NCBI GenBank assembly: GCA_007833815.1
Contig: CP033464.1
Coordinates: 3,342,001-3,406,000 of the forward strand
DNA length: 64,000 bases
From: Brevibacillus laterosporus
Lineage (GTDB): Bacteria > Bacillota > Bacilli > Brevibacillales > Brevibacillaceae
Direction of reading: 5' to 3'
Part shown: positions 18,511 to 56,844 of the stretch, one piece after another
Position numbering within the stretch: position 1 is the first letter of the stretch
How the letters are laid out: every line of letters starts with the position of its first letter
Translations under genes and position numbers: made by a program
The notes under the pieces: generated by a model
What the model was told of the DNA's origin: nothing
The model's database searches: none
The model's input: only the letters and a program-made list of their open reading frames with translations

Positions 18511-19986
18511 GTGATTCCTATAATCTACACACGATTGAAACAACTAATCGAACACAATCCCCATGCAACAGCCATTATCAGAGAAACGGAAGAAATTCCT
18601 TATCAAGCGGTACTACATGAAGCAGATAATCTGGTACAAGCTTTTAAGAAGTTTGGCTTGAATGCAGAGACGCCATTAGCTATTGTTCTTCAAAAAAGCG
18701 AAGTCATTTGGGCAGCAATAGTGGCAGCTAGCCAGCTTAATATTTCTGTCATGTTAGTTGATCCTCATTTAAAAGAAGAAGAAATGCAACAAATTATGAC
18801 GATGTATAAAACTCACTATGTTTTGCGTGAAATAAATAGTACAGCAATAGATTCACTGGGATACGATGAATGGTACGATCTTTCGTGTTTTAGCCATGCC
18901 TTTTCTATTGGAAATATAGGAGTACAGGCAACTTGTTGGAATGAATATATTCAACCATCAATAAATCAAAGCTATCTCGTGTTTCTAACGTCGGGATCAA
19001 CCAAGATACCATCTGCCGTAGTCAAAACAATTGAAAGTGTTATGTTTGATGGAAAACGTGTAGGTCAATCTCTTGGTATTACCCCAGAAGATCGTGTCTT
19101 ATGTGTAGCCCCCATTTATCATGTATTTGGCTCTATTTGCGGGTGTTTTGCTCCTTTCTTAAGTGGAGCAGCAGTATCTTTTACTGGGGCATACGTTCTT
19201 CCATCTAGTTTGGAAAAGAAAATTCACAAACAATCTTGCAACATACTAATGGGTCTACCAGTTCACTACAAAATGTTGGTTCAACACATTAATAAGCCGC
19301 TAGATAAAATTAGGATTGCTTTATCATCAACTTCACCATTGTCAGATGAGCTGTTATTATCCTGTAAGGAAAAATTGAACGTATTTATTCAAAACATCTA
19401 CGGCTCATCAGAAACAGGAGCCATTTCTATTCAACGAAATCACTTATCTATTAGTGAATCTACAAACGTGGGGCAGCCTCTTGATGGTGTACTTGTAAAG
19501 CTAGATGAAACAAACCCGTTTGAGTTTGATGGGAAAACGGTCTATGAATTACTTATAAAAAGTGAGTCTCTTGCTAAGGGGTACCTGCGTAAGGAAGATT
19601 CGGATGATTGTGAATATGTATTGCAGGATGGATGGTGGCGAACCGGCGATCTGTCCTATCTAAGTGGAGAATTCGAGCTACATATCGTTGGTCGCTTAAA
19701 TATTACAATAAATGTGAATGGTAAAAAGGTTAATCCGTATGAAATTGAGGAAGTACTAAGTAAACATCCAGCTATAGTAGATGCGGTAGTTGTGGGTCAA
19801 CACGATTTTACCCGAGGAGAAATACCTGTAGCTTATGTCGTAGCTAATAAGCAAGTTACTGAAATAGAGATACTTGAGCATTGTCGTGAAAGATTATCTG
19901 ATTTCAAAGTGCCAAGAAGAATAGAATTTAGGGACGATCTACCCAAAACGGCAGCCGGGAAGGTTCGTCGAAAAGAAGTGAAATAG
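18511..19986 (+). CDS. Acyl/aryl-adenylating ligase (ANL superfamily), probably activates cinnamate
   Basis: 491 residues, a complete adenylate-forming enzyme. The AMP-binding loop is TSGSTKIPSAVVKT (from residue 160). Then come IYGSSETGAISI, WWRTGDLSYL and the C-terminal PKTAAGKVRRKEVK with the catalytic Lys. It opens the operon and is followed 33 bases later by a free ACP, the arrangement for loading a carboxylic acid onto a carrier protein. With an ammonia-lyase gene in the same operon, cinnamate is the inferred substrate; the sequence alone does not show it. The start is unclear: GTG at 18511 lies inside the ribosome-like AGCAGGTGATT. TTG at 18535 is an alternative. Confidence 0.8.
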   Translation: MIPIIYTRLKQLIEHNPHATAIIRETEEIPYQAVLHEADNLVQAFKKFGLNAETPLAIVLQKSEVIWAAIVAASQLNISVMLVDPHLKEEEMQQIMTMYKTHYVLREINSTAIDSLGYDEWYDLSCFSHAFSIGNIGVQATCWNEYIQPSINQSYLVFLTSGSTKIPSAVVKTIESVMFDGKRVGQSLGITPEDRVLCVAPIYHVFGSICGCFAPFLSGAAVSFTGAYVLPSSLEKKIHKQSCNILMGLPVHYKMLVQHINKPLDKIRIALSSTSPLSDELLLSCKEKLNVFIQNIYGSSETGAISIQRNHLSISESTNVGQPLDGVLVKLDETNPFEFDGKTVYELLIKSESLAKGYLRKEDSDDCEYVLQDGWWRTGDLSYLSGEFELHIVGRLNITINVNGKKVNPYEIEEVLSKHPAIVDAVVVGQHDFTRGEIPVAYVVANKQVTEIEILEHCRERLSDFKVPRRIEFRDDLPKTAAGKVRRKEVK

Positions 19987-20018
19987 TTGTAGAATAAAAA
20001 CAGAACGAGAGGTAATAT

Positions 20019-20294
20019 ATGGAAATCAAAAATTCAACAGACTATAGTCTTATCATTAAAAATGATTTAGTAGAAATTATAAAAACACATTATGGTCTTG
20101 AGATTGATCCAGCTAGTATTCCAGACGATTTGGATATTATCAAACAATATAATTTGGATTCTATCGTTATTATGGAGTTGTTGGTGAATATCGAAAAGCG
20201 ATTTGATATTCAGATAGCAGATGAAGAGCTTAATACGGAATTAGTACGTACAATTGATAAATTGATGCTTTATATTCAGTCCAAAAAAATGTAA
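20019..20294 (+). CDS. Free acyl carrier protein
   Basis: 91 residues with the phosphopantetheine site Ser48 in YNLDSIVIMELL and the usual acidic helices. GAGAGG precedes the ATG. It lies between the ligase and the amidotransferase and probably carries the acyl group made by the ligase (inferred: cinnamoyl) to the condensation domain. It could alternatively be the carrier used by the amidotransferase. Confidence 0.9.
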   Translation: MEIKNSTDYSLIIKNDLVEIIKTHYGLEIDPASIPDDLDIIKQYNLDSIVIMELLVNIEKRFDIQIADEELNTELVRTIDKLMLYIQSKKM

Positions 20295-20312: not shown

Positions 20313-22187
20313 ATGTGTGGGATAACAGGGTGGATCGATTGGGAACATAACTTGTTGAATCAAAAACATACTTTACAACAGATGTCTGATTCTATTCGTC
20401 ATCGAGGACCAGATGCTGAAGGCTTTTGGATTACGGAACACGCAGCGTTGGCACATCGACGTCTAATTGTTATTGATCCTGAAGGTGGAGTACAACCTTT
20501 TGTCTATCAAGACTCTGACCCATTATATGCCATGACTTATAATGGAGAAATTTATAATTACCTTGAACTACGTCGTGAATTAATAGAACGCGGACATCAA
20601 TTTAAAACAAATTCTGACACGGAAGTATTGCTACACGCCTATATGGAATGGGCAGAAGATTGTGTTAAGCATCTCAATGGTATTTTTGCTTTTGCGATTT
20701 GGGACCAGAAGAAACAAAGTTTGTTTTTAGCACGAGATCATTTAGGAGTTAAACCTTTATTTTATTTCCAACAAGGAAGTTCTATTTTGTTTGGTTCGGA
20801 AATAAAGGCGATTCTTGCTCATCCGAGTGTGAAACGAGAAGTTGATTTTCAAGGATTATCCGAGCTTATCGTTCTTGGGGGAATACGTACGCCTGGTAAC
20901 GGTGTTTTTACAAATATTTTTGAAGTAAAGCCTGCTCATACGATGGTGTTTACGAAAGAAAGAACAAGAGAGTCGCGTTATTGGCAACTCCAAAGTAAGT
21001 TACATACTGATTCTGTCGAAGAAACAGCAGAACATATTAAGTATTTATTAGAAGATACAGTGAAGCGCCAATTAATTGCTGATGTTCCCGTTGTATCCAT
21101 GCTTTCAGGAGGTTTGGATTCAAGTGGTTTAGTTTCGATTGCGGGACGTCAGTTTTTTGATAAAGGAGAGCAGTTGTCTACATACTCCGTTGACTTTGTA
21201 GGAAGTGCCCAAGATTTTGTAGCGGATGTAGCTCGTCCTAGTTTAGATGCACCGTACGCAAAAATGCTGTCCGAGCATGTCGGAACGAAGCACCATTCGA
21301 TAACACTTACCTCTGAACAGTTGCTTGAAAATATGCTTATTCCTATGCGTATGCGTGATTTACCTGGTTATGGCGATATGGAGACATCCTTACATTTATT
21401 ATTTCGGGAGATGAAGAAGGACGCTACGGTAGCTATTTCAGGTGAATCGGCAGATGAAATATTTAGTGGATACCCGTGGTTTCATCAAGAAGAGTACCTA
21501 GATTCTCCTACTTATCCTTGGTTGATAAACACATGGGATAAATTTGCCTCTTTATTACATCAAGATGTAATCGAGAATATTCAACCAAGCAAATATGCGG
21601 CAATGAGATATGCTGAAGCGATTAAGGAAGTGCCTCTGCTTGAAAATGAAACAACAACACAAATGCGCCAACGTAAAATGTCCTATGTATTCATCACTCG
21701 CTTTTTGATCGGGTTATTGGAGCGTAAAGACCGCGCGAGTATGTATGCAGGTTTTGAAGTACGCGTTCCATTTTGTGATTACCGATTAGTGGAGTATGCC
21801 TTTAATATTCCGTTCGATATGAAGACCATTGGAAATATCGAGAAAGGGATATTGCGTCAAGCCTTCAAGGGCTACATGCCTGAAGAAGTACGACTTCGTA
21901 GAAAAAGTGCTTATCCATCGACACAAGATCCTATCTATTTTGCAGGAGTTCATTCAGCCTTTCATGAGATGATGTCTAATTCGAATGCACCTATTCATGA
22001 TTTATTGGACAAAAAGAAAATATTGAATTTATTAGACGGAAAATCTGCTCTGCTTCAAGGTAAAATGCACTCTAGTCAAGGATTGTTACTCAAGTTAATG
22101 GAATATTTTATACAAGTAAATATGTGGTTAATCGAATATAACATTACGATTACATCCACCAACAGTATCCGGAACATCACAATGTAA
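20313..22187 (+). CDS. Asparagine synthase-like glutamine amidotransferase
   Basis: 624 residues, the full AsnB layout. The N-terminal Cys2 in MCGITGW is the glutaminase nucleophile, with RHRGPDAEG and YNGEIYNY in the same domain. The synthetase domain carries the ATP pyrophosphatase loop SGGLDSS (about 265-271) and GESADEIFSGYPW. In polyketide clusters such enzymes make primary amides from carboxylates using glutamine. Here it is proposed to amidate the finished chain at C1. A malonamyl-starter role, known in glutarimide pathways, is less likely because a separate loading module is present. GAGGAG lies ten bases before the ATG. Confidence 0.88.
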   Translation: MCGITGWIDWEHNLLNQKHTLQQMSDSIRHRGPDAEGFWITEHAALAHRRLIVIDPEGGVQPFVYQDSDPLYAMTYNGEIYNYLELRRELIERGHQFKTNSDTEVLLHAYMEWAEDCVKHLNGIFAFAIWDQKKQSLFLARDHLGVKPLFYFQQGSSILFGSEIKAILAHPSVKREVDFQGLSELIVLGGIRTPGNGVFTNIFEVKPAHTMVFTKERTRESRYWQLQSKLHTDSVEETAEHIKYLLEDTVKRQLIADVPVVSMLSGGLDSSGLVSIAGRQFFDKGEQLSTYSVDFVGSAQDFVADVARPSLDAPYAKMLSEHVGTKHHSITLTSEQLLENMLIPMRMRDLPGYGDMETSLHLLFREMKKDATVAISGESADEIFSGYPWFHQEEYLDSPTYPWLINTWDKFASLLHQDVIENIQPSKYAAMRYAEAIKEVPLLENETTTQMRQRKMSYVFITRFLIGLLERKDRASMYAGFEVRVPFCDYRLVEYAFNIPFDMKTIGNIEKGILRQAFKGYMPEEVRLRRKSAYPSTQDPIYFAGVHSAFHEMMSNSNAPIHDLLDKKKILNLLDGKSALLQGKMHSSQGLLLKLMEYFIQVNMWLIEYNITITSTNSIRNITM

Positions 22188-22262: not shown

Positions 22263-25200
22263 GTGCATCCATCAGTTGTTTTTATGTATTCGGGTCAAGG
22301 ATCACAGTTTTATCAGATGGGTAAGACATTATTTGAACAGAATGAAATTTTTAGATCATGCATGCTCCAATTAGATTCGAACGTACACGATTTAATAGGT
22401 ATATCTGTACTAGATGAATTGTATGATGACCATAAAAAAATGACAGAGCCGTTTACTCGTACGCTTTATACTCATGTTTGTATTTTTATGTTGGAATACG
22501 CCATTACGATGGTTTTATTAGAAAATGGAGTCGTCCCAGACGCTGTTATTGGCGTAAGTATGGGAGAATTTGCAGCTGCGGTGACAGCAGGTGTATGTTG
22601 CGTTGATACTGCGCTGAAAGCTGTTGTTAAACAAGCCCAATTATTAGAAAACGGTTGTGAAGAAGGCGGTATGCTGGCTATTTTACATCATCCGTCTATG
22701 TTCTCGTCCGATCCTCTTCTATATAAAAATTGCGATTTGGTTTCTATTCATAACGAGAATCATTTTATTATTTCAGGTAGAAAAGAGCATATAACTAAGG
22801 CTGAACAGCATGCTAAGAACAATGGAATCATTTGTAGTATATTACCGGTTACACAAGGGTTCCATTCTTCTAGCATAGATCCTGCATCAGATGAATATGT
22901 TGCTTTTTTAAAAAAGCAACTTTTTCTTGATCCTAAAATCTCGTTTATTTCAAGTGTGTATGGTGAACCGATTGAAAAATGTAATTCGGATTATTTTTGG
23001 CAAGTCATTCGAAAACCTATTCAATTTACCAAGGGCTTCACCTATTTACAAGAAGAAGATCAAGATCGGATATTTTTGGATCTAGGTCCTTCAGGAACGC
23101 TTGTCAATGTGAGTAAATCAATGTCGAATAAACGAAAGAATCCTATCATCTTGCCCATTATAACACCGTATAAACAAGATCGACAAAATTTGGATTATAT
23201 CCTATCTCACTATGCTCATAAATATACAACTAGGGAAAAAAAGGGGAAAAAAAGTATGCTTGCTTTTGTATTTCCTGGACAAGGATCGCAAAAAAAGGGA
23301 ATGGGAGGAGAATTATTTGATCAGTATCCTCAAATCACCAGCCAAGCCGATTTGGTTTTAGGATACTCCATTAAAGAATTGTGTTTAGATGATCCATTAG
23401 GAAGATTACATCAGACCGAATACACACAGCCTGCCTTGTTTACCGTAAATGCGCTGATGTATTTGAATACCATTAACGAAACGGGAAGAAAACCAGATAT
23501 CGTTGCAGGGCACAGTTTGGGTGAATATAATGCTTTATTTGCTGCAGGGGCTTTTGATTTTGTAACTGGATTAAGACTAGTGAAAAAAAGGGGGGAATTA
23601 ATGAGCCGGGCTGTTGGCGGGGGGATGGCAGCAGTTATAGGGATGGATGAGAAAAGAATGAAGCATACATTGCTACAAAATGAATTAGACAGTATTGATC
23701 TTGCTAATTTGAATTCCCCTCATCAGTTAGTCATCTCGGGGTTACAAACAGATATCAATCAAGCAAAGCTGATATTTGAGGCAATTGAAGGTATTACTTA
23801 CATTCCGTTAAGAGTAAGTGGGGCCTTTCATTCCAGATACTTGATGGAGGCAAGAGGGCAATTTGAGTCCTATATGGATTCCTTTGTGTTTGCAGAATGT
23901 AACATACCTGTATTGTCAAATGTCCATGCCAGATTATATCAAAAAAACGATATCAAAATGAATTTGGTTAGACAGATTACGGAGTCCGTTCGATGGTGTG
24001 AGACGGTGCAAGTTTTGATGGGATTTGAAGGCATTGAAATGAAAGAGATAGGTCCGGGTAAAGTATTGACTGGATTGATGAAGAAAATAACAGCAGAAGC
24101 AGAGCCAATCTTCATCCCTAGTGAAGCTAGTTATCAAGTCGAAGCTCTTTCTGGTAAACATGCCAAAACCAGTGCTATAACAACTGTTGGCTGCAAACAG
24201 TTTATGCGAGATTATCAATTACAATATGCTTATTTGGCTGGTGGCATGTATAAAGGCATCGCCTCCAAAGAAATGGTAGTCAAGCTGGGCAAAGCTGGCA
24301 TGATGGGTTTTCTAGGTACAGGGGGATTACACGTACAACAAATCGAGCAATCTATTCAATACATTCAAAAAGAACTAAAAAGTGGTCAAGCGTACGGAAT
24401 GAACCTATTACATACTCCAGGAAAGCTTGAAAGAGAAGAGCAATTGGTAGATCTATATATGCACTACGGTATCAAAACAGTAGAAGCATCTGCCTACATG
24501 AGCATAACTCCTGCATTAATAAAATACCGTGCGCATGGATTAAACAAGCTACCAGACGGTACCGTTTCAAGCGTTAATCGAATTATTGGTAAGGTATCGA
24601 GACCTGAAATAGCGGAACATTTTTTAAGTCCAGCACCAGAGTACCTAGTAGAAAAAATGGTCAGGGAAAATAAAATTACGAGAGAACAAGCTCATATGCT
24701 CAGTAAAATCCCGATGGTAGATGATTTGTGTATAGAGGCAGATTCAGGTGGGCATACAGATGGGGGAGTATCTTATGTTCTCATGCCAGCCATGATACAG
24801 CTACGGGATGAGATGATGGAAAAATATAAATACCGTAAGAAGGTTAGAATTGGAGCAGCAGGCGGAATTGGTACTCCTGAGGCAGCAGCCGCAGCCTTCA
24901 TATTAGGAGCTGATTTTATACTGACAGGCTCTATTAATCAATGTACCGTACAGGCGGGCACTAGTGATGCCGTTAAAGACTTGCTACAACAGGTACAGAT
25001 TCAAGATACCACATATGCGCCAGCAGGAGATCGGTTTGAAATAGGAGCCAAAGTTCAAGTGTTAAAAAGAGGTGTGTTTTTCCCTGCTAGGGCGAACAAG
25101 CTTTTTGAATTGTATTGTCAATACAATTCACTTGAAGAGATAAATGAAAAAGATAAAAAACTTATACAGGCAAAATACTTTAAACGCAGTTTTAAAGAAA

Positions 25201-25514
25201 TATATGATGAATTGAAACCGAATTATTCACAAGAAGAAATAGATAAGGCTGAAAAAAATCCGAAGCATAAAATGGCCTTGATTTTTAAATGGTACCTTGC
25301 TCATTCAACAAATGTAGCATTAGATGGTGTTCCGGGACAACAAGTAGATTATCAAATTCATTGTGGTCCTGCGCTAGGTGCATTCAATCGTTGGGTAAAG
25401 GGAACAAATTTGGAAAGTTGGAAAAACCGTCATGTAGATGAGATCGGCGTAAAATTAATGGAAGAAACTGTGAAAATATTAAATAATCAGTTCCGAAATT
25501 TTCAAAGTAAATAA
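22263..25514 (+). CDS. Trans-acting AT-AT-enoylreductase protein
   Basis: 1083 residues. AT1 (about 1-310) has YSGQGSQ, nucleophile Ser99 in GVSMGEF and GFHSSS. AT2 (about 330-620) has FPGQGSQ, Ser418 in GHSLGEY and GAFHSR, and is the better malonyl-CoA:ACP transferase candidate. From about 650 to the end is a PfaD-type FMN enoylreductase with LGTGGLHVQQIE, EADSGGHTDGG and RIGAAGGIGTPEA. This supplies extender units to the PKS proteins, none of which contains an AT, which defines a trans-AT system. AT1 may be an acyl hydrolase that clears stalled chains, as in PedC-like proteins. The start is GTG at 22263 with GAGGTG six bases upstream. Confidence 0.93.
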   Translation: MHPSVVFMYSGQGSQFYQMGKTLFEQNEIFRSCMLQLDSNVHDLIGISVLDELYDDHKKMTEPFTRTLYTHVCIFMLEYAITMVLLENGVVPDAVIGVSMGEFAAAVTAGVCCVDTALKAVVKQAQLLENGCEEGGMLAILHHPSMFSSDPLLYKNCDLVSIHNENHFIISGRKEHITKAEQHAKNNGIICSILPVTQGFHSSSIDPASDEYVAFLKKQLFLDPKISFISSVYGEPIEKCNSDYFWQVIRKPIQFTKGFTYLQEEDQDRIFLDLGPSGTLVNVSKSMSNKRKNPIILPIITPYKQDRQNLDYILSHYAHKYTTREKKGKKSMLAFVFPGQGSQKKGMGGELFDQYPQITSQADLVLGYSIKELCLDDPLGRLHQTEYTQPALFTVNALMYLNTINETGRKPDIVAGHSLGEYNALFAAGAFDFVTGLRLVKKRGELMSRAVGGGMAAVIGMDEKRMKHTLLQNELDSIDLANLNSPHQLVISGLQTDINQAKLIFEAIEGITYIPLRVSGAFHSRYLMEARGQFESYMDSFVFAECNIPVLSNVHARLYQKNDIKMNLVRQITESVRWCETVQVLMGFEGIEMKEIGPGKVLTGLMKKITAEAEPIFIPSEASYQVEALSGKHAKTSAITTVGCKQFMRDYQLQYAYLAGGMYKGIASKEMVVKLGKAGMMGFLGTGGLHVQQIEQSIQYIQKELKSGQAYGMNLLHTPGKLEREEQLVDLYMHYGIKTVEASAYMSITPALIKYRAHGLNKLPDGTVSSVNRIIGKVSRPEIAEHFLSPAPEYLVEKMVRENKITREQAHMLSKIPMVDDLCIEADSGGHTDGGVSYVLMPAMIQLRDEMMEKYKYRKKVRIGAAGGIGTPEAAAAAFILGADFILTGSINQCTVQAGTSDAVKDLLQQVQIQDTTYAPAGDRFEIGAKVQVLKRGVFFPARANKLFELYCQYNSLEEINEKDKKLIQAKYFKRSFKEIYDELKPNYSQEEIDKAEKNPKHKMALIFKWYLAHSTNVALDGVPGQQVDYQIHCGPALGAFNRWVKGTNLESWKNRHVDEIGVKLMEETVKILNNQFRNFQSK

Positions 25515-38631: not shown

Positions 38632-38702
38632 AAAAATAGTTATATTGCTAAAAAATACTGATTTGTCTAGTTTATTGAATCTAGATGTGTGGAGAGATGA
38701 AC

Positions 38703-47700: not shown

Positions 47701-49952
47701 TAAAGGATGAACCACTACAGTTCTTTGTATTGTTCTCATCTGTTTCTGCCATTGTTCCAAGCTTAGGAACAGGTCAAAGTGACTATGCGATGGCAAATGC
47801 TTACATGGACTATTTTAGTGAATCTGTAGCCTATTCCTGCCCAATTGTGAGCATACAATGGCCGAGCTGGAAAGAGACCGGTATGGGAGAAGTGAAAAGT
47901 AGTTCCTATGAGCAAACAGGGATGCTCAGTATGACAAATGAAGAGGGACTATCTCTTTTGGATCGTATAATAGCGAAGAAGATGGGGCCCGTTGTTCTTC
48001 CCGCAGTTATTCAATCACAGATATGGAATCCAAAACAGCTAATGCAGACCAAGAGTAAAGATATTGGTGAAAATCATGTTCAAATGAGACCAGAAATCCT
48101 CCATTATGTGGAACTGGATCAAGATGAGCTTATGCAAAAAACTACATTATGGTTAGTTACTTTATTTTCCAAAGAATTAATGCTAGATCCCTCGTTGTTT
48201 GAAGCTGACATCTTGTTTCAAGAATACGGCATGGATTCCATATTATTGGCACAAATCATCACAAGAATGGATCGTGAATTAAAAATTGTAGCTCTAGATC
48301 CGTCTGTTTTGTTGGAATATCCGACCATAGGGAGTTTAGCTGCTTATTTGATTGAGACCTACTCAGAAGTTCTGGAAACAATATTCTCGATCAAAAGCAA
48401 AAATCCTGAATTAAAATCAATGCTTATTGAATCTGAACATATTGTTGTGCCTAAACCACAAGAGAAAATGAAAGGTCATGCAAATACGAGTAATGATAAA
48501 GAAAAAATTGCGGTAGTCGGTATAGCTTGTCATTTTCCTGATGCAAGGAATGCAAGAGAATATTGGGAAAATCTAAAAATGGGAAAAGACAGTATCCGTG
48601 AAATACCAAAATCACGTTGGGATATTGAGAAGCTTTATACTTCAAACGATTACACAAAAGGAAAAAGCATAAGTAAATGGGGGGCCTTCTTACATTCAAT
48701 AGAAGAGTTCGATCCTGATTATTTCCACGTATCAGAATCATTAGCTTCCCAAATTGATCCGCTTCAACGGCAATTATTAGAAGTGAGCGCAGAGGCGATC
48801 CTTGATGCAGGCTATAAAGAAAAAGACTTATGGAATAAACAGGTCGGGGTCTTCGTAGGAGCTCGAGCTAGTAATTTTACGCAAAAATTGGATCAAAGCA
48901 ATAAAGATACCATTGTTGGGACCGGGCAAAATTTCATTGCGGCGCATTTATCTCATGTATATAACTTTAAAGGACCTAACATGGTGATAGACACGGCTTG
49001 CTCAAGCTCGTTAACAGCTATACATCTCGCTGTAAGAAGCATTCAAAATGGGGAGAGTGAGCTTGCTTTAGCAGGAGGAGTGGACATCCTATTAGATGAA
49101 ACCCCTTACGTTGCTTTGAGTGCAGCTAATGTATTATCACGAGATGGGCGTTGCAAAACGTTTAGTGCAAAAGCAAATGGAATAGGTCTAGGAGAAGGAT
49201 GCGGGGTACTTATTCTAAAGCCGCTACAACAAGCAATCCGGGATCAAAACAAAATATATGGCGTTATTGATGGGTCATCCATTAATAATGATGGCAACAC
49301 AATGGGAATAACCACACCAAATCCAGAGGCACAGCGGGAATTAATCGAAAAAGCCATTGTTGACGCAAAGATAAACCCAGAAACCATAAGTTATGTGGAG
49401 ACACATGGCACGGGTACTTTGATCGGTGATCCTATCGAATTAAAAGCATTGACCCAGGTATTTAAGAAACACACCTTGCAAAGACAATATTGTGGTGTAG
49501 GTAGTGTGAAAAGTAACATCGGACACCTGATGAGTGCAGCAGGAATAGCCAGTTTTATTAAGGTACTGTTATCACTTGTCCATGAAGAGCTTCCCGCAAC
49601 ACTACATTGTGAACACCCGAATCCACGTTTTCATTTTGAAGAATCACCATTTTTTATCGTACAAGAGTCAATGAAATGGACGAGTACGTATGACGTTTTA
49701 CGGGCAGGGCTTAGTGCATTTGGATTGGGCGGAAACAATGCTCACATTATTGTGAGTAATGAAGGAATACCTTTGACACATCGAGTGCCTCTGGAAAGTA
49801 TAAATCCAAACATTTTATTTCAAAGAAAAAGGTACTGGCCAGAAGGAAAGAAAGATGCAAGTTATTTACAGCAATTAGAAGAGGATAACAGAAGAATGGA
49901 ACAAAACCTTGCTTATTATGAGCCTATCCGAGTTGAGCGTAGGGGAGAATGA
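38703..49952 (+). CDS. PKS protein 3: cMT-ACP-KS-DH*-KR-ACP-KS-KR-ACP-KS
   Basis: 3749 residues from ATG 38703 (GGAGAG six bases upstream; in-frame ATGs at 38685 and 38697 are less well placed). Domains: cMT (IVEIGAGTGGTSATV, about 186) and ACP Ser447 complete module 2. KS3 (533-960, Cys694), a DH (from about 1140) with Gln1171 in place of the catalytic His (EDQINNGCKVLPG), KR3 (GGAGGLGL) and ACP Ser1923 form module 3. KS4 (about 2019-2450, Cys2195 in DTMCSSS), KR4 (GGTRGLGLL; NPAFIRKS) and ACP Ser3179 form module 4. KS5 (about 3266-3700, Cys3433, ETHGTGT and NIGHLMSAAG intact) begins module 5, which continues in protein 4. The C-terminus after KS5 is a charged helix, probably for docking. 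Confidence 0.93.
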   Translation: MQKYKHKDISEEKQRMEAMNELFMKVLLVQLSSIGSFTSKNSSPSSFQAKMELPDFYNKWLEVSFDFLIQEHYIKQDGETYHICNQALIDQDMIWKEWEIKKIEWLEDSNTRAKVVLAETMLRALPDILTGKRKATEIMFPDSSMQLVEGIYKYNKLADYFNNVLADTVISYVQNRLDSNANSKLRIVEIGAGTGGTSATVLQKLTPYHDHIQEYCYTDISKAFLMHGAKEYGTSNPFLTYNMLNINETITKQNMDVGGYDVVIAANVLHATPNIHQTIRHAKTLLKRNGIIVVNEITEKTLFNHLTFGLLEGWWLYEDPALRIPGCPGLCAKGWEKALTVEGFTSVSFPAVDAEELGQQIIIAKSDGLIRQKQDIQKNSIKDNKRSEIKKTISSPKSIESIDNQMIEQKILDHITNIIIQKISESLLVDIQMISQNESFSDYGVDSITGVKLVQVINEALNIKLDTTTLFDYSSVTQLASHIISEYKSIIMQQLFQNVEQKSVSQNKTLAKEQKNSEPISSTSVSKTRIESEINIAIIGMSGRFAKSETVHDLWEHLSRGNDLIEEVSRWDLSTYYKQGASYCNQGSFVDDIEQFDPLFFNISGTEAEYMDPQQRIFLEESWKALEDAGYAGAGVQGKKCGIYVGCGGINYQNILGENPPPQAFWGTANSIIPARIAYYLDLQGPAIAVDTACSSSLVAIHLACQSLWAKETEMALAGGVFIQSTPEIYRFTNRAGMLSPTGRCHTFDERADGFVLGEGAGVVVLKRLSDAIADGDHIYGVIRGSAINQDGTTNGITAPSAKSQERLEQEVYDTFQIDPQHIQMVEAHGTGTKLGDPIEYKALTRAFNKYSNEKNYCAIGSIKSNIGHLTFAAGVAGLIKILLSLQHKQIPPTLHYEKGNSNIEFEDSPFYVNTELTEWSVEPNMKRCAAISSFGFSGTNAHMVIEEAPLLSKPTTPKPGYLITLSARTLDQLHQQVERLIQYCETERQIDYGNMSYTLIMGRKHFNHRFACVVHERNELVNVLKTWLEKGEAPDVYASALSKKGQQEQIAMKQYGNECIRNVNDETDANVYVERLSTLASLYTQGYELEFEKMFSQHHYSRIPLPTYPFAKERYWIPEAEYHPFSNKHQEEFSASINEIHPMLHQNTSDLFEIRFSTTLTGKEFFLEDQINNGCKVLPGVAQLEMARIAVEKAIGSKGYDQATVQLQNIVWTNPICIEEQPKQVHIGLFLEDDGEVSFEIYSDLDEGRDEIVVHSQGRAVYNDKTQESLIDLPTLLAECNQRILTTNDFYTSWEEKGEIYGKSLQGIEQMYVGKGQVLARLSFPSDGMGFEGQYVLHPSVMDAALQISLMFPTVAQVVTNVFLKEAIPVTLEKIEVLRSCSTRMWSRVRSSEACMVDNETLKVDIDLIDDNGLVCIRMIGLMLTALETEGHSVQGQEQIGRISLEPVWREQAIIQKEIIPSYHKHIVMLCEPFEALQGHMAAQTNEVTFICLRSEASRIEQRFEAYAVQAFETVQQIIRSKPNTHVLLQIVGSHQGEQQVFSGLVGLLKTARLENPKLIGQMIEVDQEDEQTELIEKIMNNKQSPEDIHIRYVKGKRQVASWNEMEILKQNVTIPWKDGGVYLITGGAGGLGLIFAEEIARKIRNGTLLLTGRSELSGEKLAKLKELQTLDARIIYKQVDITRKDAVDHLVKRLIQEFGSLNGIIHSAGIIQDNFILKKSVEEVKNVLAPKVAGSIYLDEATKDLHLDFFLFFSSMSGAIGNPGQADYAMGNAFMDCYAEYRNHLVNVNERKGQTFSINWPLWKEGGMHVHLETEKMLLQSTGMIGIETKTGIENIYQMFTSKKNRLVLMEGNLPKLRSYFVTKEMKKEKPSLEQTVIQVDLDTLEEKTMTKFRRMLGEQLKLSIDQIDASESLDRYGIDSLVIIELNQKLERIFGECSKTIFYEYQTIEELTKYFTLHFREQCMEWTGLTQEMKVGAQVPEVNHGVKKELPTPVSSIRKKQFSRHVPVNQIQQNQREPIAIIGMSGHYPQASNLQQYWNNLAQGKDCIVEIPEERWSTENFYDADRKEAFAKGKSYSKWGGFIQDFASFDPLFFSISPREAMNMDPQERLFIQSCWEALEDAGYTKEQLTVQHKGRVGVFAGITKTGFQLYGPQLWKEGEELFPYTSFSSIANRVSYLLNLRGPSMPIDTMCSSSLTAIHEACEHIRHGECEMAIVGGVNLYLHPSNYVQLCGQQMLSAEGKCKSFGQAADGFVPGEGVGSFLLKPLSKAMEDGDHIHALIRATSINHGGKTNGYTVPNPVAQGELVREAIERAGINARTISYIEAHGTGTELGDPIEITGLNQAFGKDTQDTNFCAIGSVKSNIGHLEAAAGIAGLTKIVLQMKHQKLAPSLHAKELNPNINFAKTPFAVQQELTEWKRPVVEINGIIRECPRIAGISSFGAGGANAHVIVEEFISSDEVQSTISHQKSPVIIVLSAKNEDRLKDQAKQLLVTIQEQNYSDRDLESMAYTFQVGREAMEERVGMIVSSMKDLEEKIRGYINDQVNLEDVYQGQVKRNKETVSIFLADEELQEAIQKWIERKKYSKLLHLWVKGLSFDWNKLYGKNKPRRMSLPTYPFAKERYWIPQSGDGITPEAVIAPRESNHDNKIQSRKNCFVKKQWQSFSTDGTKELKGTIGILTTSATEQLAKYVSERIANTRMMNVHTLKPHSSHSEEEWKKYAGIIDVTGCGSEDSADQHWISTLQNLIGVGKRDDMMLLCVTKGLESLKNDSVNLAGASRVGLYRTLQSEYSQVRSRHMDIERHLEDSILAEQIVSEFFAQSQDVEVCYRDGQRYRAYLDVIEDEIDIKGQKQVFPHSHVLWITGGTRGLGLLCAKHFVENYGVTRIVLTGREVLPPREEWELYKEHHSSTAQKIRSIEQLERLGAHIQVLSVSLSDEDEVRKSMEHIKLSMGPIGGVIHCAGSVDMENPAFIRKSSETIKKVMEPKIQGLNVIYQSVKDEPLQFFVLFSSVSAIVPSLGTGQSDYAMANAYMDYFSESVAYSCPIVSIQWPSWKETGMGEVKSSSYEQTGMLSMTNEEGLSLLDRIIAKKMGPVVLPAVIQSQIWNPKQLMQTKSKDIGENHVQMRPEILHYVELDQDELMQKTTLWLVTLFSKELMLDPSLFEADILFQEYGMDSILLAQIITRMDRELKIVALDPSVLLEYPTIGSLAAYLIETYSEVLETIFSIKSKNPELKSMLIESEHIVVPKPQEKMKGHANTSNDKEKIAVVGIACHFPDARNAREYWENLKMGKDSIREIPKSRWDIEKLYTSNDYTKGKSISKWGAFLHSIEEFDPDYFHVSESLASQIDPLQRQLLEVSAEAILDAGYKEKDLWNKQVGVFVGARASNFTQKLDQSNKDTIVGTGQNFIAAHLSHVYNFKGPNMVIDTACSSSLTAIHLAVRSIQNGESELALAGGVDILLDETPYVALSAANVLSRDGRCKTFSAKANGIGLGEGCGVLILKPLQQAIRDQNKIYGVIDGSSINNDGNTMGITTPNPEAQRELIEKAIVDAKINPETISYVETHGTGTLIGDPIELKALTQVFKKHTLQRQYCGVGSVKSNIGHLMSAAGIASFIKVLLSLVHEELPATLHCEHPNPRFHFEESPFFIVQESMKWTSTYDVLRAGLSAFGLGGNNAHIIVSNEGIPLTHRVPLESINPNILFQRKRYWPEGKKDASYLQQLEEDNRRMEQNLAYYEPIRVERRGE

Positions 49953-49957
49953 ATGAT

Positions 49958-52900
49958 ATGAATCAAATACAAACACAGGAGACGTTTTTACAGCGACTGT
50001 ACCATAGTCATTATTTAGTACAAGATCATCGCGTTCATGGCATTTGTGCTGTTCCAGGTCTAGCTCTGATGGATATGGTTTATCGAGTAGCTGCTCTTTA
50101 TTTAGATAAACAACCAATTGAGTTAAGACAAGTTTTGTTCAAACAACCCATTGTGACATCAGAGCATTTCGACAAAAATATATACGTCACTTTTACGCCT
50201 ATGGAATCCTATTGGAAAGTAACGATTACAAGTCAAAAAGTAAAAGATGATTTGGTTATAGATCAGCAAATGGAAGTCAATATGGAATGCTTCATGTATG
50301 TTATGGATAATGGGAAAAAACACGAAAAATTAGATATTCAAGCATTTATGAATCATTCAACCAAGCAGTGGGATATGGATCAAATGTATGATTTAGTGCG
50401 AAAAACGAAAATTCAACATGACACATTCATGAAAACGGAAGGCACGGTGTATCAATGGGGTCATAAAGAATTAATGAAACTTGAACTTAGTAAATTAGCA
50501 GAATCTTACCTAGATAAATTTTATGCACATGCCGCTTTTCTAGATGGATCATGTTTGTCTGGGGCATCTTTTATGGTGAGTGACATGCAGTACAATATTT
50601 TTCAGGAGAATACGCCTTATATACCATTTATGCTTGAACGGTTTTGTATCTATGAGTCTCTTCCAAAAACAGTTTATACCTATACGGAACAAACCGAAAT
50701 ACATGGAAATATATCGTCAGCTCCAGATGTTGTTTCTCGTGATATTACGATTTTTAATGAAGGGGGTGATGTGTTAGCTGAATATAATAAATTTACTGTA
50801 AAACGAGTTAGAGAGCCACAACTCATCAAAAAATTAATTGAAACGCAAACCTTTCAAACGAATATGACAAAGAGCGATCGCCCAATCGATCGTTCGCATA
50901 AACAAGCGGAAGAGATGATACAACAGGCGGATGTAATAAACCAACAAAGAGATACTTCTAGCAAATCATCTATTCAAATGTACCTGCAACAAGAAATAGC
51001 AAACGTTTTGAAAATGAATGTGAACAGCATTCACACGAACACAGGCTTTTATGAGTTGGGATTAGATTCAACGCAATTATTAGGTCTTGTAAAAATATTG
51101 GAGAATAAAGTAAAAGTAGCTCTGTATCCAACGCTTTTATTCGAATATTCGACTGTGGAAAGTTTATCTCAATATTTACAAGACAACTTTAAGCATGCCT
51201 TTGTAAAAGAACATAGTATTTTTAATCCTCCTGAAATACAAGTGAGTTCCATACATTCTTACCTACAACAAGAAATTGCCTCAGTATTAAAAACGAATCC
51301 TAAGGAAATCCAGATACACACAGGCTTTTATGAATTGGGATTAGATTCAACACAATTGTTAAGCCTTGTAAAAGTACTGGAGAAAAAAGTAGATTCAACC
51401 CTATATCCAACGCTTTTATTTGAATATTCGACTGTGGAAAGTTTATCTCAATATTTACAAGAAAACTGGGCGTCCTCTTTTTTCCATGGTACGGATGCGA
51501 ATACACATGAAATAGCTGTGCCTCCTATGACGAGCAGTTTACAAGAACATCAAGCTAACATACTTTATTTTGAACGAAACTGGAAAAAGATGGAGTTGAA
51601 TAAAAATAAACGTGCCACTATAAAACGCAATCATGTTGTACTTCTATTTCATGATTCTATAAAATTACAATCTGAAATAAAGCAACAATTGAATCTTGAG
51701 ACTGTGATAGCGCTGAGATCAGATAAAGCGGATGTTGTAGAGCAATTTCAAGACAAGTGCAAGCAATGTTTACAACACATTCAAGCACTATTACAGAACA
51801 AAATGACAACAGAAATTCTGCTACAGATTGTCACGGATTCTAGTGAGGAAGACAAATATGCTGATGCATTAGAAGGAATGGTCAGGACAGCTTACTTAGA
51901 ACAACCAAAAATTCACAGCCAATTGATTAAAATGGATACGCTGAATGATCATTCTACACAAGTAATCACAGCCTTGCTTGAAAAAGAGGCACGTTATCAT
52001 GAAAAAGGGACGGTAAGCATTCATTATCGAGGAAAGGACTTGATAAGGTATGTTCATCAGCTAAGAGAAATGGATGCTAAAGCTAACTTTCTCCCCCAGC
52101 ATGGGCTGGAAAATGGTGTATATGTCATTACAGGCGGTTTAGGTGGCTTAGGTTATTTGGTTGCAAATCATATTGCAAAGCAAGGGAATGTCAAACTTGC
52201 CTTATTAGGGCGTTCCAAACTGGATGCAACAAAACAACAACAAATCTATCACTTAATGGAAATGGGAGTAGATGTACGCTATCTGGAAGTAGATTTATGT
52301 GAAAGAACGGAAACGGTACAAGCCTTTCATTCCATTAGAGAAGATTTAGGTCCGATCAAAGGTGTTTTCCATTGTGCTGGTGTCATAAAAGATCGATTGC
52401 TTATTCAAAAAAATACGAATGAATTACAAGATGTACTTTTACCTAAATGGAGCGGGGTATGGAATCTAGATCAGGTCACTCAGGATGATGAGCTGGAGTT
52501 TTTCGTACTATTTTCATCTGTTTCAGCCATTATGGGAAATGTAGGCCAAGCTGATTATGCTTGCGCTAATGCATCTATGGATTTATTTGCTGTAGAGCGA
52601 CAAGAGCATGTAAACAGCGGCAAGAGATGTGGTCAAACCCTTACGATCAACTGGCCATTATGGGCAGATGGAGGAATGCAGCTCGAAGACGACTTGTTAC
52701 AAATGATGACTGCCTCAACTGGTCTGTCCGTATTACCAAGTAGAGAAGGATTAGTGGCGTTGGATCATATATTATCACAAAAAAACACTCAAACCATCGT
52801 GTTATATGGAGAGGAAAGTAAAATCAGGAATCAAATCCAAACGCTGAACGCAGAATTTGTAGAACAAGTACAAGAGCAACAAGAAGGAGAAAGTATCATA

Positions 52901-53782
52901 ACGAGAATTTGCATAGATGATTTTACTTTTCCTGATGATCTTAAAACATACTGGCATAACATCAAGGCTGGACAGCGACTCAGTAAGCATAAAACGAGTG
53001 TGGCAGAGCTTCAGTCATTCGTGGAAAAAGAGAATGACATACAGCATGTACTCGTTCAGACTCAAACATCTAGACAGGTTGAAGTTGTTGTTTGCGGAAA
53101 AGGGAAGAAATATGTTCTGTTATTTTGCGGTTTTGGTTTAACTGCTTCCCAATGGTACTACCAAATCAAAGAATTGAGAGAGGATTATCAATTCATTATT
53201 ATTCATCCGCCAGGAGTAGGATTAAGTGAAGACAATGGTGATCTTTCCTTTCATGGTATTTCCAATACGGTATCTGAAGTGTTAGACATATTACGTATAC
53301 CTACACCTCTCCATGTGGTAGGGACTTCTTGGGGAGGAATGATAGCACAGACCTTTGTGGCGAATTTTCCGCAAAAAGCTGTTTCGTTAACATTGGTAAC
53401 AAGTTTTTGCGAATTGGATCAATTATGGGATGAACAATCATTAAAAGATGCATTTAAACTAGATTTTCATATTAATTATCGAAAAGGCGCGTATGAATTG
53501 ATTCAGCATAGCGAATTTGTTAATCCTGTTGTACTGCGATATAGCGAGATTGCAAGAGAAGGTAACTTGAATACGTACAACATACTTGCAGATATTTCTG
53601 TGCCAACATTAATTGTGTCAGCTAAAAAAGACATCATGGGTTTTTACTATCAAACGAATCAATTAGTAACGAAAATACCACATGCGACATTAGTCGAGAT
53701 GAACGGTGGTCATGGATGTAATATCACACATTATGAAGAGTTTAATCGGATTTTTACCCAATATGTAAACGAACAAGATTAG
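49958..53782 (+). CDS. PKS protein 4: DH-ACP-ACP-KR-TE
   Basis: 1274 residues. The N-terminal DH has His24 in DHRVHGICAVPG and Asp in AFLDGSCLSG, where Leu replaces the usual Gln/His four residues later. Two nearly identical ACPs follow (Ser371 and Ser464, both YELGLDSTQLL). The KR (VITGGLGGLGYL, about 720; FSSVSA; DYACANA) comes next. The last 250 residues are an alpha/beta-hydrolase thioesterase with Ser1124 in GTSWGG, Asp in KKDIMG and His in GGHGCN. This ends module 5 and releases the chain, presumably as a free acid. ATG at 49958 lies nine bases after AGGGGAGA; ATG at 49949 overlaps the upstream stop but leaves only one base of spacing. Confidence 0.92.
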   Translation: MNQIQTQETFLQRLYHSHYLVQDHRVHGICAVPGLALMDMVYRVAALYLDKQPIELRQVLFKQPIVTSEHFDKNIYVTFTPMESYWKVTITSQKVKDDLVIDQQMEVNMECFMYVMDNGKKHEKLDIQAFMNHSTKQWDMDQMYDLVRKTKIQHDTFMKTEGTVYQWGHKELMKLELSKLAESYLDKFYAHAAFLDGSCLSGASFMVSDMQYNIFQENTPYIPFMLERFCIYESLPKTVYTYTEQTEIHGNISSAPDVVSRDITIFNEGGDVLAEYNKFTVKRVREPQLIKKLIETQTFQTNMTKSDRPIDRSHKQAEEMIQQADVINQQRDTSSKSSIQMYLQQEIANVLKMNVNSIHTNTGFYELGLDSTQLLGLVKILENKVKVALYPTLLFEYSTVESLSQYLQDNFKHAFVKEHSIFNPPEIQVSSIHSYLQQEIASVLKTNPKEIQIHTGFYELGLDSTQLLSLVKVLEKKVDSTLYPTLLFEYSTVESLSQYLQENWASSFFHGTDANTHEIAVPPMTSSLQEHQANILYFERNWKKMELNKNKRATIKRNHVVLLFHDSIKLQSEIKQQLNLETVIALRSDKADVVEQFQDKCKQCLQHIQALLQNKMTTEILLQIVTDSSEEDKYADALEGMVRTAYLEQPKIHSQLIKMDTLNDHSTQVITALLEKEARYHEKGTVSIHYRGKDLIRYVHQLREMDAKANFLPQHGLENGVYVITGGLGGLGYLVANHIAKQGNVKLALLGRSKLDATKQQQIYHLMEMGVDVRYLEVDLCERTETVQAFHSIREDLGPIKGVFHCAGVIKDRLLIQKNTNELQDVLLPKWSGVWNLDQVTQDDELEFFVLFSSVSAIMGNVGQADYACANASMDLFAVERQEHVNSGKRCGQTLTINWPLWADGGMQLEDDLLQMMTASTGLSVLPSREGLVALDHILSQKNTQTIVLYGEESKIRNQIQTLNAEFVEQVQEQQEGESIITRICIDDFTFPDDLKTYWHNIKAGQRLSKHKTSVAELQSFVEKENDIQHVLVQTQTSRQVEVVVCGKGKKYVLLFCGFGLTASQWYYQIKELREDYQFIIIHPPGVGLSEDNGDLSFHGISNTVSEVLDILRIPTPLHVVGTSWGGMIAQTFVANFPQKAVSLTLVTSFCELDQLWDEQSLKDAFKLDFHINYRKGAYELIQHSEFVNPVVLRYSEIAREGNLNTYNILADISVPTLIVSAKKDIMGFYYQTNQLVTKIPHATLVEMNGGHGCNITHYEEFNRIFTQYVNEQD
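50973..51465 (+). repeat. Tandem ACP coding repeat
   Basis: Two ACP units of about 220 bases (starting near 50973 and 51250) share long identical blocks. One example is the stretch encoding LFEYSTVESLSQYLQ, which ends each unit. They arose by tandem duplication. Confidence 0.75.
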
Positions 53783-53794
53783 GGGATGAATACA

Positions 53795-55165
53795 ATGATG
53801 AAAAAAAATGTGATTAAAACGTATCCTTTATCAAAAATGCAAAGTGTTTTTTATGAACACTTTGCATTGTTTCCAGAATCATATGGAAACAATGAAAAAG
53901 TGCTTTATCGTATACATTCACCCGTCAACATAGATGTAATGAAGGAAGCTTTTTTACAAGTTATCAAGCGACATGAGATGTACCGCACCAATTTTATTAT
54001 GGAGGATGAACCGGTACATAAAGTTTACGATGAGGCTATTTTGGATTTTGAATTAATTGAAGCTAGTAATTGGGAGGAAGAAGTAGTAACACAGTTTTTA
54101 CGTGAAGAAACATATCGTCCTTTTAAACTAGAAGAAAACCCTCCCTTTAGAATTAGATTGCTACGTTTTTCAGATCATGATTTTATCTTACTTTTAGTAT
54201 GGCATCATGTTGCTGTTGATGGATGGTCTGCTTCTCTTACAATCGATGATTTTGGATTGATATACAAGCATTTATTAGAAGGAAACGCGGTTGAGCTTAC
54301 TCCAATTAGGCGACAGTTTTCAGACTTTGTTACAGCACAAAACGAGATGCTAGAAAGTTCAGAAGGGGAAAAACAGCGTTTATTTTGGAAAGAAAAGCTG
54401 TCAGGAGAGCTACCCGTACTTAAGCTCCCAGCAGATCGAGAGTTTCCGGATGTTCGTTCTTATAAAGGAGGTACTGTATCGTTTCGCCTTGAGCAACCAT
54501 TGAGCAATCAGGTATTTGCTTATTGTCAGGAAAAAGATACAACACTTGATCGAGTTCTTCTATCCCTATACTTTGCTTTTTTACATGGTTTTTCTAAACA
54601 AGAAGAAATCGTAATTGGAACACCTAGATATGGACGAGCATCGACAAGCTATTATAATACGTGTGGCGTTTTTATCAATTTACTTCCCTTACGATTGAAA
54701 ATGCCAAAAGATGTCACGTACTCTGAGCTCGTGCATTTTGTTGATGAGCAAATTAATCAATATCTAGCTTATCAAGATTATCCGATGACACTTATGATGG
54801 AAGATCAAGATTTACATGTCGGACTAACGCCACTTTTTCAAACATGCTTCTCCATCCAGAAGTGGCCTAGACAGAGCACTACGATTCATTTTGGTGAGTC
54901 CACAAATGAAATTAATTTACATGGTTTACAAATGAGTCACTACTATACAGAAAAGAAAATCTCAAAGTTCGATCTTGCTTTGTATGTTGAGGAAGATCGA
55001 AAGAATGGTATTTTGCCTATCTTTGAATTTAATGGTGATATTTTTGATAAAGAAACGATTGTGAAGTTGAGTAGTATTTTCAAGAAATTTATTTCTTCTG
55101 TCATGGATGATGATCAGGTGAAAATTTCCACTCTATGCTCATTTCTTCAAGAAATTGAGCAATAG
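53795..55165 (+). CDS. Stand-alone condensation domain, probable ester-forming acyltransferase
   Basis: 456 residues, a single NRPS-type condensation domain. The active-site motif HHVAVDG is at residues 137-143, and FINLLPLRLKMP and YQDYPMTLMMED are also family motifs. No adenylation or carrier domain is attached, and no other NRPS domain is encoded nearby. Condensation domains of this kind can join a carrier-bound acid to a hydroxyl group. With the free ACP, the ligase and the ammonia-lyase of the same operon, it is inferred to put a cinnamoyl group on a polyketide hydroxyl. ATG 53795 is 8 bases from AGGGGAT; an in-frame ATG at 53786 touches that site. Confidence 0.88.
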   Translation: MMKKNVIKTYPLSKMQSVFYEHFALFPESYGNNEKVLYRIHSPVNIDVMKEAFLQVIKRHEMYRTNFIMEDEPVHKVYDEAILDFELIEASNWEEEVVTQFLREETYRPFKLEENPPFRIRLLRFSDHDFILLLVWHHVAVDGWSASLTIDDFGLIYKHLLEGNAVELTPIRRQFSDFVTAQNEMLESSEGEKQRLFWKEKLSGELPVLKLPADREFPDVRSYKGGTVSFRLEQPLSNQVFAYCQEKDTTLDRVLLSLYFAFLHGFSKQEEIVIGTPRYGRASTSYYNTCGVFINLLPLRLKMPKDVTYSELVHFVDEQINQYLAYQDYPMTLMMEDQDLHVGLTPLFQTCFSIQKWPRQSTTIHFGESTNEINLHGLQMSHYYTEKKISKFDLALYVEEDRKNGILPIFEFNGDIFDKETIVKLSSIFKKFISSVMDDDQVKISTLCSFLQEIEQ

Positions 55166-55197
55166 GCTAGAAACTATTTACAGATAGAGAGGATAGA

Positions 55198-56844
55198 GTG
55201 ACTATGAGTGAATTAATATTTACAGAAATAGAGCAGCAAGACCAGATTCAAGACAATCAACAAACAATGATATTAAACGGGAATGATTTAACAATTGCAG
55301 ATGTTGCCCATGTAGCAAAAGGTGACTCTAAATCATTTTCATTTTTAATTTCGGATGAAGCAATAGAGCGTATTGTAAAGTGCAATGAGTTAAAACATGA
55401 AATTATCAACAAGCAGCATCCTATATACGGAGTTACGACTGGATTTGGGGACAGTGTAAATAGACAAATATCTGCTGAGAAAACATGGGATTTGCAACGA
55501 AATCTTATTAAATTTCTATCGTGCGGGGTTGGTCCTGTAGCAGATGAAAGCGTGGCACGGGCAACCATGTTAATACGTACGAATTGTTTGGTGAAAGGGA
55601 ATTCAGCTGTACGTATGGATGTGATTCATCAGCTGGTAGCATATTTGGAAAAAGGAATTACCCCGATTATTCCTGAGCGTGGTTCTGTTGGAGCAAGTGG
55701 CGATTTAGTTCCGTTAAGTTATGTTGCCTCAATCCTAGTTGGAGAAGGAAAAGTGTTGTATAAAGGGAAACAGTGTGAGGTAAAAGAAGCACTTGAAGCT
55801 GAGGCTCTCATGCCTTTAACTTTGGAAGCCAAGGAAGGGCTTGCCTTAGTGAATGGAACTTCTTTTATGTCTGCATTTGCTTGTTTAGCGTATACAGATG
55901 CTGAAGAAATCGCATTTGTAGCTGATATTTGTACAGCTATGGCTTCAGAAGCGCTGCTAGGGAATCGTGGACATTTTTATTCGTTCATTCATGAACAAAA
56001 ACCACACCTTGGTCAAATGGTAAGTGCGAAAAATATATACACCATATTAGAGGGCTCCCAGTTATCCAAAGAATATTCGCAAATTCTTGGAATTAATGAA
56101 AAAATGAATTCAAAATCTTATGTGGAATTAACGCAGAGCATTCAGGACCGATATTCGATCCGATGCGCACCGCATGTTACCGGCGTGCTGTATGACACAT
56201 TAGATTGGGTGAAAAAATGGCTAGAAGTCGAAATTAATTCAACAAACGATAATCCCATTTTTGATATTGATACGCGTGAAGTTTACAATGGCGGTAATTT
56301 TTATGGCGGTCATGTCGTACAAGCAATGGATTCGTTAAAAGTTTCGGTCGCCAATATTGCAGATTTGTTGGATCGTCAATTGCAACTGGTGGTCGACGAA
56401 AAATTCAATAAGAATTTGACCCCTAATTTAATTCAACGTTTTAACAGTGATGATTATGAACTAGGTTTGCATCATGGATTTAAAGGTATGCAAATTGCAA
56501 GCTCAGCTTTAACCGCTGAAGCTTTGAAAATGAGCAATCCCGTCAGTGTGTTTTCACGTTCTACAGAAGCTCATAATCAAGATAAAGTGAGTATGGGTAC
56601 AATTGCATCACGTGATGCACGTACAATTGTAGAATTAACCCAACATGTAGCGGCGATCCACCTCATTGCACTTTGTCAAGCATTAGATTTACGTGACATT
56701 GAAAAAATGTCACTACAAACTTCTAAGATTTATAAAATGATCCGCATGCATGTGCCGTTTGTGGATCGTGACAGAGCATTGGAGGGGGATATTGAAATAG
56801 TTGTACAGCTTATCCGTTCTGGAGAATTAAAAAAAGGAATGTAA
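55198..56844 (+). CDS. Aromatic amino acid ammonia-lyase, probably phenylalanine ammonia-lyase
   Basis: 548 residues of the HAL/PAL family. The MIO-forming triad Ala166-Ser167-Gly168 lies in GSVGASGDLVPLSY, and YGVTTGFGD is the conserved Tyr loop. At the substrate-selectivity position the sequence is Phe106-Leu107 (NLIKFLSCG), the pair found in phenylalanine ammonia-lyases, where tyrosine lyases have His-Leu. The expected reaction is L-Phe to trans-cinnamate plus ammonia. It is the last gene of the operon, before a strong terminator. GTG 55198 is five bases after GAGG; ATG 55204 is an alternative. A histidine ammonia-lyase is less likely from both context and the selectivity pair. Confidence 0.87.
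   Translation: MTMSELIFTEIEQQDQIQDNQQTMILNGNDLTIADVAHVAKGDSKSFSFLISDEAIERIVKCNELKHEIINKQHPIYGVTTGFGDSVNRQISAEKTWDLQRNLIKFLSCGVGPVADESVARATMLIRTNCLVKGNSAVRMDVIHQLVAYLEKGITPIIPERGSVGASGDLVPLSYVASILVGEGKVLYKGKQCEVKEALEAEALMPLTLEAKEGLALVNGTSFMSAFACLAYTDAEEIAFVADICTAMASEALLGNRGHFYSFIHEQKPHLGQMVSAKNIYTILEGSQLSKEYSQILGINEKMNSKSYVELTQSIQDRYSIRCAPHVTGVLYDTLDWVKKWLEVEINSTNDNPIFDIDTREVYNGGNFYGGHVVQAMDSLKVSVANIADLLDRQLQLVVDEKFNKNLTPNLIQRFNSDDYELGLHHGFKGMQIASSALTAEALKMSNPVSVFSRSTEAHNQDKVSMGTIASRDARTIVELTQHVAAIHLIALCQALDLRDIEKMSLQTSKIYKMIRMHVPFVDRDRALEGDIEIVVQLIRSGELKKGM

Follow-up and report, generated by a model that had tools for sequence, protein, structure and literature searches.

The window analysed here, a 64,000-nucleotide stretch of Brevibacillus laterosporus DNA (assembly GCA_007833815.1, contig CP033464.1, positions 3,342,001 to 3,406,000), carries at 18511-56844 an operon of ten genes that encodes a trans-acyltransferase (trans-AT) polyketide synthase (PKS). 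All ten genes lie on one strand and are separated by short gaps. An earlier note on this DNA had assigned the operon to a cinnamoylated dienamide of the basiliskamide/YM-47522 type, and its open reading frame borders agree exactly with those found here. Domains were called with Pfam and NCBIfam profiles, save for the GNAT domain, which has no Pfam match and was recognised through the CurA and GphF chains. The genes and features are as follows, where ACP denotes acyl carrier protein, MT methyltransferase, cMT C-methyltransferase, KS ketosynthase, DH dehydratase, KR ketoreductase, ER enoylreductase and TE thioesterase.

18511..19986, + strand: AMP-forming ligase, probably cinnamate-activating (Pfam PF00501/PF13193)
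20019..20294, + strand: stand-alone carrier protein, probably the cinnamoyl holder (PF00550)
20313..22187, + strand: AsnB-type glutamine amidotransferase, probably the terminal-amide maker (TIGR01536, 513 bits)
22263..25514, + strand: trans-acting AT-AT-ER (PfaD) protein (TIGR00128, TIGR02814 at 669 bits; motifs GVSMG, GHSLG)
25554..32588, + strand: PKS1, AprA-type MT-GNAT-ACP-ACP loading module and KS1-DH-KR (profiles and chain matches)
26256..27062, + strand: loading MT core with the majority of conserved residues retained (PF23525, 386.9 bits)
27063..27659, + strand: GNAT decarboxylase-like domain (matches to CurA 2ree and GphF 6mfc)
27735..28379, + strand: two tandem loading ACPs, one in each of three related clusters (sequence comparison)
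32632..38631, + strand: PKS2, cMT-ACP-ER (end of module 1) and KS2-KR (profiles)
38685..49952, + strand: PKS3, cMT-ACP (end of module 2), KS3-DH-KR-ACP, KS4-KR-ACP and KS5 (profiles)
42126..42995, + strand: extra module 3 DH, catalytic His replaced by Gln (codon 42213-42215), none in the three related clusters
49949..53782, + strand: PKS4, DH-ACP-ACP-KR-TE (profiles)
53786..55165, + strand: stand-alone condensation protein (HHVAVDG), which probably esterifies a hydroxyl with cinnamoyl (PF00668)
55198..56844, + strand: phenylalanine ammonia-lyase, with the MIO-forming ASG and, at the selectivity positions, FL (PF00221)

The full domain order begins with the AMP ligase, the ACP, the AsnB-type amidotransferase and the AT-AT-PfaD(ER) protein, continues through PKS1-PKS4 as AprA_N/winged helix/MT-GNAT-ACP-ACP-KS1-DH-KR / MT-ACP-ER-KS2-KR / MT-ACP-KS3-DH-KR-ACP-KS4-KR-ACP-KS5 / DH-ACP-ACP-KR-TE, and ends with the condensation protein followed by the aromatic amino acid lyase. 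All five KS domains carry Cys-His-His in DT(A/M)CSSS, HGTGT and N(I/M)GH motifs, and the only cis ER is in module 1. As previously claimed, cMT domains are confined to modules 1 and 2, and a TE is present. The earlier gene and domain list largely holds; it omitted the module 3 DH, the tandem AT's fused ER and the condition of the loading MT. The AsnB-type protein begins MCG and so keeps Cys2, and the AprA-type loading module is complete in order (AprA_N, winged helix, MT core, GNAT).

Among 60 genomes, the source genome included, matches to the window lyase at 85-89% identity were found in three of the five other genus genomes (G002, G004 and G005, the last being Brevibacillus laterosporus MSSRFCCT15); the remaining matches reached at most 39%, with 38% the best in G001. 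The AsnB-type protein has some match at 1e-150 in all 40 family genomes searched (source genome again included), and identity of 87-90% is seen in G002, G004 and G005 only, the next best being 58%. These three relatives encode counterparts of all ten window proteins, arranged alike, with best segments 72-89% identical, and tyrS, epimerase, glyoxalase and VanZ-type genes are common to the flanks of all four. Because the ten proteins keep the same order and the flanking genes are shared, the cluster is, as judged from gene order, one inherited locus in the window and the three relatives. Compared with the MSSRFCCT15 cluster, the locus, gene order and gene set are alike, and the best segments of the ten proteins are 72-87% identical (69% for the N-terminal part of PKS1). 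However, the window differs in its intact-looking loading MT, in having two loading ACPs rather than one, and in its apparently inactive module 3 DH, where MSSRFCCT15 has none. The sorbitol phosphotransferase system genes adjoining the window cluster were unmatched in the G005 stretch compared. In a further genome of the genus, G003, probable counterparts of the epimerase (59%) and the glyoxalase (52%) lie about 10 kb from each other, and the 13 kb around those two flanking genes gave no match to any of the ten window proteins. In G002, the PKS1 frame (L022 13238-18529) stops after 1763 residues, ahead of its KR, which reflects either an assembly error or a real break.

The assignment of the operon to the basiliskamide family is sound, and is already in print for B. 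laterosporus, so it is not new. Basiliskamides were isolated in the PE36 paper (Theodore 2014; PMC3940840), where trans-AT cluster 12 was put forward, as an untested proposal, as their source; that cluster is described with a GNAT loading function (acetyl), a tandem AT, and amide-forming, condensation and adenylation genes. Of 11 B. laterosporus strains, 10 were reported to have a similar cluster by antiSMASH, DSM 25 (similarity 18%) being the exception, and the entry for strain 1821 in the same table is printed as only 18/9 (PMC6978878). The earlier note had given basiliskamide A/B and YM-47522 one dodecadienamide chain, and this is contradicted by a review that describes YM-47522 (spelled YM-45722 there) as longer than basiliskamide A by one methylene (PMC10669366). 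The review text also gives the two different activities, with a minimum inhibitory concentration against C. albicans of 1 ug/mL for basiliskamide A and growth inhibition at 25 ug/mL for YM-47522 (PMC10669366). A cluster of the YM-47522 type was located nowhere in the literature searched.

The loading module resembles those of the AprA/GphF/CurA type, since the window MT-GNAT matches the 7uci chain (702 residues), AprA MT1 (565) and the CurA GNAT, but the PKS that carries it is a trans-AT system from Bacillota. Of 399 genomes of the class (source genome included), only 5 had a module of this kind at E 1e-60, and all 5 belong to this genus. G001 (C1 about 582000-602553) and G002 (C1 about 5092000-5111966) encode another PKS protein, some 6000 amino acids long (L052, L053, L062, L064), which opens with an MT-GNAT loading module 55-57% identical to that of the window and adjoins a protein that resembles the condensation protein weakly (21-22%).

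To compare the loading MT domains, we took as reference the 145 positions invariant across AprA MT1 and two paralogs from the genus, the loading modules L052 and L053. The window retains 121 of these residues, and G002, G005 and G004 retain 101, 100 and 94, respectively. Positions lost only in a relative outnumber those lost only in the window by 23 to 3, 26 to 5 and 30 to 3 (exact McNemar p of 9e-5, 0.00019 and 0.0 to five decimals, in three tests that share ancestry and are non-independent). The GNAT domain served as a control: of 133 positions invariant in the two paralogs, 99 are kept in the window and 97 in each relative, and relative-only versus window-only losses are 5 to 3 for each. 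For the N-terminal and winged-helix part, 52 of 70 residues are kept in the window and 49, 47 and 48 in the relatives. Profile scores for PF23525 are 386.9 bits in the window versus 338.2 (G002), 330.7 (G005) and 327.2 (G004), whereas AprA_N scores run in the opposite direction (77.5 versus 85.0, 81.4 and 85.3) and winged-helix scores are nearly level (92.2 versus 87.5, 86.4 and 95.1). Searches with phmmer, which covered the window, G002 and G005, gave 513, 464 and 438 bits to AprA MT1, 182, 189 and 195 bits to the CurA GNAT, and 114, 102 and 110 bits to the GphF GNAT.

Fourteen of the MT losses are common to all three relatives, including H251Q, D280N and D285N, the latter two of which fall in the MT glycine-rich motif. 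In trees built from the lyase and from the GNAT part, both with long outgroup branches, the three relatives group without the window (99/96 and 97/96). Because the losses are shared and the trees join the three relatives, a single decay event on their stem would fit these data. The loading MT appears intact in the window and decayed in the three related clusters. No treatment of the decay of this cluster's loading MT was found in the literature searched, which lay outside supplements and subscription papers.

The lyases of the window and the three relatives carry an FL motif, as do those of Longirhabdus and one actinobacterial contig; FL and YH are the Phe and Tyr patterns, respectively, of aromatic lyases (PMC5651878). 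A B. laterosporus lyase (BlPAL) assayed in 2017 was reported as exclusively Phe-active and was putatively tied to the cinnamate of basiliskamide (PMC5651878). The likeness to BlPAL rests on the published FL pattern, as the BlPAL sequence itself lies outside the alignment. The best NCBIfam match is NF041222 (BagA/FevW; 726.5, below the cut-off of 1000). Of the five aligned actinobacterial relatives, four have YH, unlike the window, and one has FL. A tyrosine lyase identity was rejected because of the FL motif. The FL motif and the strict Phe specificity of the B. laterosporus enzyme therefore support a Phe-derived cinnamate, in agreement with the claim that the cinnamoyl ester follows from the accessory genes, and the gene set for a cinnamate ester (Phe-type lyase, ligase, ACP and condensation protein) is present by sequence. 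The lyase of Longirhabdus pacifica (L004 9920-11584) is 71% identical to that of the window. Among the ten window proteins, only the lyase was matched within the 21.6 kb examined, so this Phe-type lyase appears to belong to a different genetic context.

Module 3 contains a full DH domain of about 300 residues, of which no remnant is found in the alignment of the three relatives. It is only 50.5% identical to DH1, and a fresh DH1 copy was rejected on this ground. Its HxxxGxxxxP motif starts with Gln (FFLEDQINNGCKVLP versus FFLEDHVVQGCKVLP in DH1), and this change of the catalytic His argues against a working dehydratase. Since no dehydration would be expected from such a domain, the C7 hydroxyl should be kept. 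The C7 oxygen was claimed without regard to this DH, and it nevertheless stays plausible: the hydroxyl is expected by two routes, a dead domain in the window and a missing domain in the relatives. With a single copy to go by, the domain may have been lost in the relatives or gained in the window.

A different product, either a shorter chain from a non-elongating KS5 (type B dehydrating bimodule) or a triene from a working DH3, seems very improbable. The PE36 paper interprets KS-KR-ACP-KS-DH-ACP-KR as a dehydrating bimodule (PMC3940840), and module 3 of the window does contain a DH domain. However, DH3 has Gln in place of the catalytic His, and the carbon count of basiliskamide would require five extensions from acetyl. 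The defining mark of a type B dehydrating bimodule is a non-elongating KS whose active-site His is lost. The KS5 active site has its Cys-His-His intact (DTACSSS, THGTGT, NIGH), and the non-elongating candidate was rejected.

Taken together, these findings lead us to propose a basiliskamide-family operon whose product would be a propionyl-started homologue, one CH2 longer and YM-47522-like, a reading to which we give an even chance. A propionyl starter is predicted because the window MT retains residues that the relatives have lost, while the GNAT domain exhibits no such gap. The loading MT would C-methylate malonyl-ACP, and the GNAT domain would decarboxylate the product to propionyl (less likely isobutyryl); in the three relatives, with a decayed loading MT, the starter would be acetyl. 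GNAT decarboxylation is stated for CurA and GphF (PMC10127204). Five extensions would follow, with a methyl group and full reduction from module 1, a methyl group and hydroxyl from module 2, a hydroxyl from module 3 with its dead DH3, and dehydrated units from modules 4 and 5 that yield the 2,4-diene. The lyase would deaminate Phe to cinnamate, the ligase would activate it onto the small ACP, the condensation protein would place the cinnamoyl group on a chain hydroxyl, and the AsnB-type protein would amidate the chain end. Gene order, domains and motif states are observed directly, and each chemical step and the product are inferred from what is known of the family. The predicted [M+H]+ is 400.248 for the propionyl form, 386.233 for the acetyl form and 414.264 for the isobutyryl form, values obtained by arithmetic from the structure named in the earlier note.

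The isobutyryl form, two CH2 beyond basiliskamide, would arise from double methylation by the loading MT, the route used to load apratoxin and gephyronic acid, and we consider it improbable. The window has His at a site where AprA MT1 and both paralogs also have His and the 7uci chain has Gln; we take 7uci to be a monomethylating enzyme and this site to bear on methyl number. However, the three relatives carry the same His, so that this residue alone marks no active enzyme, and at the adjacent site the window has Val, where AprA and the paralogs have Tyr. We also know of no basiliskamide-family member of this size. Decarboxylation of dimethylmalonyl to isobutyryl is described for gephyronic acid (PMC10100342).

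Several observations weigh against the propionyl reading. The window MT itself departs from the reference at 24 of the 145 positions, including Tyr458 (Val here), and losses in the N-terminal and winged-helix part tilt weakly in the same direction as those in the MT (4 to 1, 5 to 0 and 5 to 1 of 70; p 0.06 to 0.38). The ratio of nonsynonymous to synonymous substitution rates (dN/dS) for the loading MT is 0.22-0.27 in all six pairs, those with the window included, which is raised yet far below 1; the fold remaining in the relatives would thus still be under selection. Other domains mostly give 0.02-0.2, the highest values being 0.34 for DH1 and 0.36 for MT1 (the second loading ACP has no value in any pair, nor KR1 in G002 pairs). 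Hence dN/dS does not separate the window MT from those of the relatives, and as a pseudogene test it gave no clear answer on MT function or loss. Module 4 lacks its own DH, so that formation of the C4=C5 bond would depend on one supplied by another module. The likely donor is the DH that opens PKS4; it keeps its His and has an unusual second motif (LDGSCLS versus MDAALQ). A propionyl starter would account for the extra CH2 of YM-47522 only if that methylene is at the alkyl end. In addition, the comparison covered the clusters of MSSRFCCT15 and two further genus genomes rather than that of the proven producer PE36, and the product of the window cluster is a prediction from its genes.

These points lend some weight to a plain basiliskamide A/B cluster, in which the loading MT would be idle here too, or unused on malonyl-ACP, and the GNAT domain would give acetyl. 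We judge this rather unlikely. The window shares its locus and gene set with B. laterosporus MSSRFCCT15, the basiliskamide maker PE36 was assigned an acetyl-loading GNAT (PMC3940840), and MT dN/dS is raised in all pairs, but the window MT retains residues that the relatives lost, and the GNAT domain has no such difference. The acetyl starter and C12 chain originally put forward fit the relatives, with their decayed MT, better than the window, for which the intact-looking MT places them in doubt.

With the propionyl-started homologue as the preferred reading, it is possible, though somewhat short of an even chance, that decay of the loading MT acts as a natural switch, in which an intact MT leads to propionyl and the YM-47522 type and a dead MT leads to acetyl and the basiliskamides. 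If so, the window would hold a cluster of the YM-47522 type, and the relatives would represent an intermediate stage between loading modules of the AprA type (MT-GNAT) and those of the CurA type (GNAT only), with a methyltransferase domain caught mid-decay inside a megasynthase. Neither the family of compounds nor its likely gene set is new; what would be new is a natural one-domain loading change that sets the starter and separates two antifungal homologues. The loading MT difference is the part worth testing.

A promoter scan upstream of the operon gave 12 sites versus 11.1 expected, which is no signal, and Rfam at gathering scores gave no matches across the window. No LoaP antiterminator lies beside the operon; the source genome has one match above the cut-off and one below, at about 1.29 and 1.17 Mb on contig C4, outside the window (3.34-3.41 Mb). 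A 1 kb probe found no near match in the plasmid collection. The 1.4 kb upstream of the operon is well conserved in the three relatives and contains a short minus-strand frame (MEPKQLKN...) at about 17390-17640, which we presume to resemble a Spo0E-family regulator. A terminator-like hairpin with a T run, past the upstream epimerase gene (17204-17227), is largely kept in the relatives. Finally, the KR region of module 1 (31254-32453) and that of module 2 (37282-38451) are 94.8% identical over 384 residues, whereas all other KR pairs are only 22-35% identical, a near-identity that looks as after recent duplication or gene conversion.

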